DNA from: Xylanibacter muris
GTDB lineage: Bacteria; Bacteroidota; Bacteroidia; Bacteroidales; Bacteroidaceae
DNA: 64,000 nt
Direction of reading: 5' to 3'
NCBI RefSeq assembly: GCF_013166605.1
Contig: NZ_JABKKF010000002.1
Location: forward strand, 372,001-436,000
The position numbers and the translations under genes are program-made. Of the stretch, positions 6,171 through 40,703 are shown piece by piece. The notes under the pieces are model-generated. The model was given only the letters and a program-made list of their open reading frames with translations. It was not told where the DNA came from and did not search any database. Each line of letters starts with the position of its first letter. Positions within the stretch are counted from its first letter, which is position 1.

Positions 6171-6410
6171 GTAGGGACGTGCCTTTGGCACGTGTCAGGT
6201 GTGGAAACATCCTCCAATAAAATAAAGATATGAATTATCCACATCGCAGACTCTGGATGTTACTCTATATCTTCCTTTCCTCCCCTTTGTTGAGTCGGGG
6301 GCTTCTTCTTCTCCGGATATGAGGCGTCGCTTTGCGATGTATATGGTGTTTATAATGAATAGGGTGTGTGGTTGTTTGCCGCCTGACACGTGCCAAAGGC
6401 ACGTCCCTAC
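6171..6410. mobile_element. REPIN-like element: two inverted REP sequences
   Basis: A 29-base sequence beginning GTAGGGACGTGCC (6171-6199) is repeated exactly in inverted orientation at 6382-6410, 182 bp apart. Each copy starts with the tetranucleotide GTAG followed by a hairpin (ACGTGCC-TTT-GGCACGT). This is the layout recognised by REP-associated tyrosine (RAYT/IS200-like) transposases. The spacer has a further inverted pair, ACATCGCA/TGCGATGT, near 6240 and 6333. No transposase gene lies in the window, so mobility would be in trans. No target duplication is evident. Confidence 0.65.
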
Positions 6411-6557
6411 TGGAGGATGAGCCCCCTCTTTTCCCTCCTCAAAGGAGAAGGAGCCATTTCCCTTTGGGGAGAGAAAGGATAGGCTTCTTCTGGCTCATCA
6501 AGGTAGGCCACGATCTTCATACGGAATGGAAAATATTGAATTTATAAATTATGTGCT

Positions 6558-6762
6558 GTTAATTTATCAAAAAAGCCGCTGTGTTCTTAAAATTTTGAAA
6601 TATATTTACATGCTCAATGGATGTAAAATCCTCTTCCGATGAATGGCATGTTCATGCTCAATGAATGGCATATTCATCGGCCGTGAATGGCATGTTTATC
6701 AAGCGTGAACATGCCATTCATTTTGGCATACTTTTTGTCTGTGTCTAACGTGTTGTATGTCA
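6558..6762 (+). repeat. Hairpin repeat element, copy A
   Basis: A 205-bp block homologous to 40314-40519. It holds three hairpins in order. The first is TTTACAT/ATGTAAA (around 6604-6627). The second has CCGATGAAT/ATTCATCGG arms (around 6637-6681) with a GCTCA apical loop. The third is GAATGGCATGTT/AACATGCCATTC (around 6685-6719). The motif TTTTGGCATACTTTTTG follows. It lies between convergent maf and the thioredoxin-domain gene. No coding frame is shared with copy B. From 6763 to the terminator at 6991 I see only a doubtful 18-codon frame at 6901. Confidence 0.7.
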
Positions 6763-6990
6763 ATTGGTTACGAATTTTGGAAAATCTATAAAAAGCAATA
6801 AAACCATCTGCGTGATTTTTTATTACACATTAAGGCTTTTAATGCGGATTGTCTTAACAAATATTTAGAATAAAGGTTAAGAATAATTGGAGATAAATTC
6901 ATGAATCAACCGGTAAAGCAATGCCGATTAATCCGGATCACCGATTATACAACATGACATATATGAACCCTTAGGTTTGTCGGGTGAGCC

Positions 6991-40260: not shown

Positions 40261-40313
40261 GTTCTTATCGGGCATATATGAATGCTGTTAGATGCCTGAT
40301 GTTAAAATGAAAT

Positions 40314-40519
40314 GTTAATTTACTGAAAAATATCCGGTTGCCGTAATTTTTTTGAAATCTATTTACATTTTTGGTGAATGTAAAATTCTCTTCCGATGAA
40401 CATGCTATTCATGCTCAATGAATGGCATGTTCATCGACAGTGAATGGCCTGTTCATCAAGCGTGAATAGGCCTTTCATTTTGGCATACTTTTTGATTGTG
40501 GTTAATATGCTGTATATCA
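40314..40519 (+). repeat. Hairpin repeat element, copy B
   Basis: 206-bp homologue of 6558-6762 with the same order of three hairpins. First, TTTACAT/ATGTAAA with a different loop. Second, CGATGAACATGC/GCATGTTCATCG (perfect 12 bp) plus ATTCAT/ATGAAT closed by the same GCTCA loop. Third, GAATGGCCTGTTCA facing TGAATAGGCCTTTC. TTTTGGCATACTTTTTG follows, as in copy A. It sits between the convergent TPR and DUF362 genes, mirroring copy A's setting. Confidence 0.7.
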
Positions 40520-40703
40520 GATGATTATGGTTTTAAAAAACATGAAGCACCCTCAATGAAAACGTCTTATGAATTTTTGTTACATATCGAACCGGGTTAG
40601 CATACATATTTTGCCTGGTACTGCATTTTTTATGCCTTTGTCCGTGTGTTGTTGCCATATTATGTAGAACCGGTTGCCAAGAGAAACCGGTTATGTGTGA
40701 GAC

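Follow-up and report, generated by a model that had tools for sequence, protein, structure and literature searches.

We identified two copies of a dispersed intergenic module in the window, the 64,000-nucleotide stretch of DNA that was analysed, and we tentatively read the module as a docking array for a putative chromosome-organising protein, a proposal that we hold to be quite possible though short of probable. The observations behind this reading are the motifs themselves, their 22-bp periodicity, the near-constant length of the module and its even spacing along the chromosome, together with its intergenic position, its bias towards convergent gene ends and the conservation of its motifs beside drifted spacers.

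Anatomy and copy number of the module

The original prediction was of a hairpin element of ~205 bp, present at positions 6558-6762 and 40314-40519. These two stretches are indeed homologous, with 82% identity over a local alignment of 181 columns, equal lengths and a GCTCA linker in both. The boundary of the unit had to be moved, as the module extends for another ~70 bp and takes in a 25-bp dyad (6746-6770) and a 3' box (6813-6827). In alignments of 40 and 38 copies the right-hand end given earlier falls inside the 25-bp dyad, the length of the module is about 275 bp and conservation drops to background outside it. Copy A as a whole spans 6556..6832 on the forward strand, with information at background beyond these limits in the 40-copy alignment, and copy B spans 40312..40589 on the same strand, as bounded by its alignment with copy A and by the 38-copy alignment.

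The motifs occur in a fixed order: a TTTACA/TGTAAA inverted pair, four dyads spaced by 22 bp, the box TTTTGGCATACTTTTTG, a 25-bp dyad and finally TGAATTTTTATTACA. In copy A, where all features are given on the forward strand, an outer A/T-rich 5' box, GTTAATTTATCAAAAAA, lies at the left end of the module (6558..6574) and is found in 24 of the 40 aligned copies. It is followed by the inverted pair TTTTGAAATATATTTACA ... TGTAAAATCCTCTTCCGA (6593..6639), which has many invariant columns over 40 copies; this left part of the module reads TTTTGAAATCTATTTACA, then 11-12 mostly variable bases, then TGTAAAATTCTCTTCCGA. The array (6640..6720) consists of four 15-bp dyads of the form TGAA-N7-TTCA, located at 6640-6654, 6662-6676, 6684-6698 and 6706-6720, and its period of 22 bp is made up of the 15-bp dyad and a 7-bp linker. 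The TTTTGGCATACTTTTTG box (6721..6737) directly adjoins the array. The 25-bp dyad of copy A, TAACGTGTTGTATGTCAATTGGTTA (6746..6770), belongs to the consensus TAAC-N4-TG-NN-TATCA-N4-GTTA, which is followed by an A-rich spacer and then by TGAATTTTTATTACA, represented in copy A by the 3' box TGATTTTTTATTACA (6813..6827). Copy B (locus L014) has its four-unit array at 40397..40477, its dyad TAATATGCTGTATATCAGATGATTA at 40503..40527, where it fits the strict dyad pattern, and its 3' box TGAATTTTTGTTACATA at 40570..40586, as located by a scan with the 3'-box pattern, all on the forward strand.

Nearly all copies have four array units, and two (L026 and L041) have five. Outside the 3' box, at a distance of 23-27 bp, 10 of 53 copies have a TTT[AG]AC box, compared to 1% of background windows, and the outer A/T-rich boxes, each carried by part of the copies only, resemble each other in inverse orientation as judged by eye. 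In five copies (L026, L041, L081, L086 and L094) array units and linkers were seen in both orientations, and the complementary partner of a linker is located at varying places among these arrays, an arrangement of the kind that template switching in quasi-palindromes produces. The motif TTTTTGGCATACTTTTTG was considered by eye as a sigma-54 promoter and rejected: among the 39 copies that have a base after the final T-run, this base is G in just 64%.

The suggestion that the two copies belong to a family dispersed in this genome was borne out. Copy A used as a blastn query against its own genome, a 3.35 Mb draft in 25 contigs, detected 40 copies, and a profile (R1), based on sequence only and built on 38 aligned copies, added 17 places, which were fetched and read. 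The resulting 57 places hold whole or partial copies and include at least three partial matches (L093, L094 and L095), two of which are truncated by a contig end. Individual motifs are largely confined to the elements: the 3' box, at two mismatches or fewer, has 51 matches in the genome of which 49 are inside elements, and the strict 25-bp dyad pattern, which fits 31 of the 57 copies, has 31 matches, all within elements.

Contig ends have more copies close by than the 0.85 expected: seven of the 57 are no more than about 1 kb away from one (G000 C1, C2, C19 at both ends, C20 at both ends and C25). Three of the seven are near-identical and may flank ribosomal operons, although Rfam models detected nothing but a tRNA in these loci. 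Copies L092, L093 and L095, at or near contig ends, are 92-100% alike and are thus recent duplicates of each other. Other repeats were observed close to elements as well. Short palindromes of the ACGTGCCAAAGGCACGT and GGACATCGC(TTT/AAA)GCGATGT types recur in the window (6385-6410) and in the flanks of L005, L084 and L087, and judging from these occurrences they probably form a separate dispersed family. Copies L002 and L017 have in common a stretch about 85 bp past the 3' box with a TTGGAT...ATCCAA hairpin, and similar TTGGATGAAATCCAA hairpins are found near other copies (flanks of L032 and L005).

Conservation and spacing of the copies

Over 40 copies, mean pairwise identity is 0.93 for the TTTACA box, 0.91 for the 3' box, 0.86 for the stretch beside the TTTACA box, 0.83 for the TTTTGGCATACTTTTTG box, 0.81 for the array and 0.67 for the 25-bp dyad. 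For the outer 5' box it is 0.60 over all 40 copies and 0.81 among the 24 carriers. The three spacers reach 0.33, 0.41 and 0.38, where composition predicts 0.25, 0.28 and 0.29, and the flanks reach 0.30-0.31, the expectation from composition alone for spacers and flanks being 0.25-0.29. The spacers have therefore drifted almost to the level of the flanks but remain a little above it, and saturation is incomplete; the most similar pair of copies has 63% of its spacer bases in common.

Length has been kept in spite of this drift. In 46 of 53 measured copies the TTTAC box and the 3' box lie 218-221 bp apart. Two of the 53, L002 and L017, were mis-anchored here, and four further copies, L008 and L011 among them, were left unanchored; a separate measurement gave a normal box-to-box length for L002, L017, L008 and L011. 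Five copies are longer, by about 4, 10, 10, 21 and 21 bp, and in both cases of 21 bp the addition is one array unit. Intact motifs, drifted spacers and preserved lengths are together better explained by selection on DNA sites than by a recent transposon burst, and we infer such selection from them. Helical phasing is probably under selection too, as judged from the few length events. A recent burst of a MITE is disfavoured by the far-drifted spacers beside intact motifs.

The copies are evenly spaced. Contigs of the 25-contig draft with at least two copies yield 41 within-contig start-to-start gaps, the smallest of which is 17.6 kb. No gap is shorter than 17 kb, where 12.9 would be expected at random placement; the test was conceived after the positions had been inspected, and the 17-kb cut was chosen at that point. 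In simulations that keep each contig's own copy count, a smallest gap as large as that observed occurred in 0 of 20,000 runs with uniform placement and in 0 of 5,000 runs limited to random slots, and omission of the seven contig-end copies left the result unchanged. When the 3' box was scanned for separately, as a pattern in the same elements, the 49 matches inside elements (the two outside being excluded) had a smallest gap of 17.8 kb, a value likewise unequalled in 20,000 simulations. Random insertion followed by neutral decay does not predict such even spacing, which is predicted by either a chromosome-scale function or target immunity.

The best rival to the docking array is a mobile element with target immunity, that is a MITE-like non-autonomous element whose transposition avoids targets near existing copies and whose array and dyads are putative recombinase sites. 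Target immunity is known for Mu and Tn7, and it could give the even spacing. The dispersed copy number and the intergenic position also suit such an element, the outer 5' box (24/40) and the TTT[AG]AC box (10/53) could be its decayed ends, and a MITE described in Porphyromonas gingivalis has 23-nt tandem repeats according to the published account (PMC4596501). We nevertheless consider this explanation rather unlikely. Words shared by the two flanks showed no clear excess over swapped flanks in 47 copies, a comparison in which short duplications are invisible without exact ends: 12 of the 47 share 7-8 flank bases, compared to about 9 expected, and none share more. No neighbour gene recurs, and the spacers have drifted while the motifs are intact. 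REPs have RAYT partners in many genomes. A search for the Y1 (RAYT) transposase family (PF01797) gave 0 matches in this genome and was positive in 5 of 14 control genomes, which argues against a MITE mobilised by this family and led us to reject a REP/RAYT system. With flank words similar to those of swapped flanks and spacers near random, the MITE named in the original prediction is not established.

Among the three options of that prediction (a structured RNA, a MITE or a repeated regulatory site), the regulatory site fits best, in the form of a putative DNA site for protein binding. The genome-wide spacing, though, suggests a role at the scale of the chromosome more than the control of particular genes.

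Folding and gene neighbourhood

Folded as RNA, copy A forms one long nested hairpin, in which unit 1 pairs with unit 4 and unit 2 with unit 3, whereas copy B forms two separate hairpins. Three hairpins in the same order, as originally described, are thus not a fold common to both copies; the hairpins arise because the array repeats imperfect dyads every 22 bp, so that its units can pair in several ways. The related description that loops differ more than stems holds insofar as short motifs are kept and spacers are not, and in no other sense. Both window copies fold more stably than their shuffles do (z of -5.7 and -6.3), and a low folding energy must be expected for any palindromic array.

Pairing between units was scored over the inner 7 bases in 56 copies. 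Units 1 and 2 (hairpin 2) score 3.45 of 7, identical to the shuffled value of 3.45, and units 3 and 4 (hairpin 3) score 4.80 compared to 4.28 (sd 0.16). The strongest unit pairing, between units 2 and 4 (4.73 compared to 3.81, sd 0.23), excludes pairing of units 3 and 4. Linkers 0 and 2 score 3.89 compared to 3.50 (sd 0.10; 56 copies). Covariation of a whole structure resembling the predicted one (alignment A1) is 0.124, compared to 0.112 for shuffles, of which 9 in 500 were as high, and this structure outscores its six slid versions. The excess speaks for some pairing, in a score that takes no account of kinship among the copies.

These results bear on another rival, a small RNA family of many copies that would carry its own promoter and terminator and act in trans, as FopS does in Bacteroides. 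The stable folds of both window copies are consistent with such a family, as are the modest covariation in units 3-4 and linkers 0-2, the whole-structure covariation matched by few shuffles, and a terminator-like stem with a T-rich tail, with which the array ends in both window copies. We consider it improbable, however, since copies A and B fold differently, hairpin 2 pairs as shuffles do, the strongest unit pairing excludes hairpin 3, and even spacing is not expected of a small RNA family. In addition, a scan of the window with Rfam covariance models gave 0 matches at the gathering threshold, and the weak matches lie far below the gathering scores. The structured RNA originally suggested is weakly supported: covariation is modest in hairpin 3 and at the level of shuffles in hairpin 2, and it is weak at best across the copies of a family that with 57 places is not limited to the two copies of the window. 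FopS of Bacteroides thetaiotaomicron resembles the present element in being a multicopy noncoding family in Bacteroidales, and it is described as 14 sRNAs with a single-stranded 5' seed, one terminator hairpin and canonical promoters (PMC11697453); this layout of seed, hairpin and promoter was not recognised in the present element.

The module has no coding capacity and is intergenic throughout, with 0 of 57 copy midpoints inside a called gene; four copies, as bounded, run 3-35 bp into a gene end. A purpose-written codon-usage script provided both the gene calls and the background gaps. The flanking genes of the 51 classifiable copies are convergent in 21 cases, tandem in 22 and divergent in 8. 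The corresponding numbers are 8, 15 and 16 for 39 other gaps with a length of 150 bp or more, of which 17 are from the window (both element gaps included) and 22 from the loci, so that convergent and divergent gaps differ between elements and background (Fisher P = 0.006). Within tandem gaps, 8 copies are oriented along the direction of the genes and 14 opposite to it.

A bidirectional terminator or 3'-end element between convergent genes would account for the preference for convergent and the avoidance of divergent gaps, and also for the T-run after the array. The mixed orientation of the tandem copies, 8 along the genes and 14 opposed to them, does not suit this explanation, the dyad and the 3' box lie past any terminator, and 57 evenly spaced copies are too few to serve most gene ends; we regard it as an outside possibility. 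Least probable of all, in our view, is a local regulatory site for the neighbouring genes. The dyads do resemble regulator sites, but genes flanking a convergent gap do not start in it, and the flanking proteins are mostly unrelated: no recurring neighbour gene was found, and the 212 flanking ORFs contain six related pairs, the strongest with 45% identity over 408 aa (L029 and L084).

Copies A and B have ordinary protein-coding neighbours: Maf, a thioredoxin-domain protein, RadA and a TPR-like protein. In genome_contigs (best 80 loci), RadA has its nearest counterparts in Prevotella-type genomes, with 87% identity at best, and judged by this protein the host is related to Prevotella. Among the matches listed, proteins of other genomes of the genus are 33-45% identical to the 761-aa protein that precedes copy B on its upstream side, and by this measure no close sister genome was seen among them.

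Relatives in other genomes and proposed role

No copies were detected by blastn in 39 other genomes. Phages and plasmids gave no match, nor did viral contigs when searched with two patterns, and a phage or plasmid origin was rejected on these grounds. A search of genome_contigs with one motif pattern returned 0 stretches; this pattern fits a part of the copies only, a near-identical one having matched 17 of 41 loci, and searches of the collections may omit records that belong to, or are close to, the genome analysed here. Profile R1 gave weak matches in 5 of 119 genomes besides its own, mostly to array-like repeats of other sequence, and across the family the array pattern was found in 3 of 399 genomes, own genome included. 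Within the genus a TGA/TCA array pattern was present in 12 of 398 genomes (own included) and its reversed control in 13 of 398, and with a control at least as common the array pattern by itself does not prove homology. The outliers for the TGA/TCA pattern are the own genome with 58 matches and congener G134 with 23; counts of 15 and 14 occur in two control genomes. The reversed control, ACT-N9-AGT with a 22-bp period, had 15, 14, 7 and 6 matches in G048, G189, G279 and G261, and by these counts further congeners probably have arrays whose arms differ.

G134 contains 187 array matches at one mismatch or fewer, overlapping registers counted, with the same 22-bp period. When the dyad matrix of the own genome was applied to 12 independent loci of G134, its best match was beside the array in 10, its second best in 1 and neither in 1; the scores range from 0.4 to 15.0, several of them low, and off-array matches in other loci reach 13.5. 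At 15 other loci the dyad is clear at the array only in the two of congener G056, and L105 is ambiguous. A similar candidate companion dyad is thus seen in three species, with differing arrays. The two G056 loci (L044 and L049) have a different 22-bp array with long inverted repeats on both sides that contain a TGAGTATCAGCAGGTTAC-type dyad, and in sequence they look like a larger palindromic element. Spacing in G134 (25 gaps from the 43 arrays listed, smallest 4.0 kb, P about 0.014) is only suggestive of evenness.

No published description of the 57-copy family was found in the literature searched, among the matches listed, and the nearest case is BrickBuilt of Porphyromonas gingivalis, which is likewise intergenic, species-restricted, from the Bacteroidales, of similar short repeat period and associated with assembly gaps at its copies (PMC4596501). 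BrickBuilt is described as having 19 copies, a 23-nt direct repeat without spacers (18 full repeats in one copy) and terminal inverted repeats that match those of IS elements almost exactly (PMC4596501). The present element differs in having 22-bp dyads with linkers, nearly always four units, boxes on both sides and even spacing. With REP/BIME sequences, reported as extragenic palindromes often located between convergent genes, with gyrase, IHF and Pol I sites (PMC1525189), it has in common that its palindromes are extragenic and favour convergent gene ends. REPs are given as 20-40 bp long (PMC3733652), whereas the present element is a fixed 275-bp composite, evenly spaced in a genome without Y1 transposase. 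The sites of Noc (~70) and SlmA (24-52) are palindromic, distributed over one chromosome, each bound by its protein, and under-represented at the terminus, according to the published description (PMC4726725). The present element is similar in consisting of dozens of dispersed palindromic sites (57 places). Noc and SlmA sites are single short palindromes (14 bp for Noc; PMC4726725), in contrast to the four-unit array with flanking boxes described here.

Read as a docking array, the module would bind a dimeric protein through its dyads, and array, 25-bp dyad and TTACA boxes would sit in one nucleoprotein complex. This complex would mark or insulate chromosome domains, or tie the nucleoid to segregation or division. 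With more reserve, we regard it as possible that Prevotella has a fast-diverging class of such sites, in which dyad arrays phased at 22 bp, each accompanied by a conserved dyad, are placed at regular intervals of tens of kb between convergent genes and are recognised by a putative lineage-specific binder, as an array-built analogue of matS, SlmA or Noc sites. To our knowledge, little is known of chromosome organisation and segregation in Bacteroidales compared to E. coli or Bacillus. Evenly spaced sites with intact motifs offer a concrete handle here, as the DNA can serve as bait for its protein and individual copies can be removed. Should the arrays in related species be homologous, their divergence would also be a case of fast co-evolution between a family of sites and its binder.
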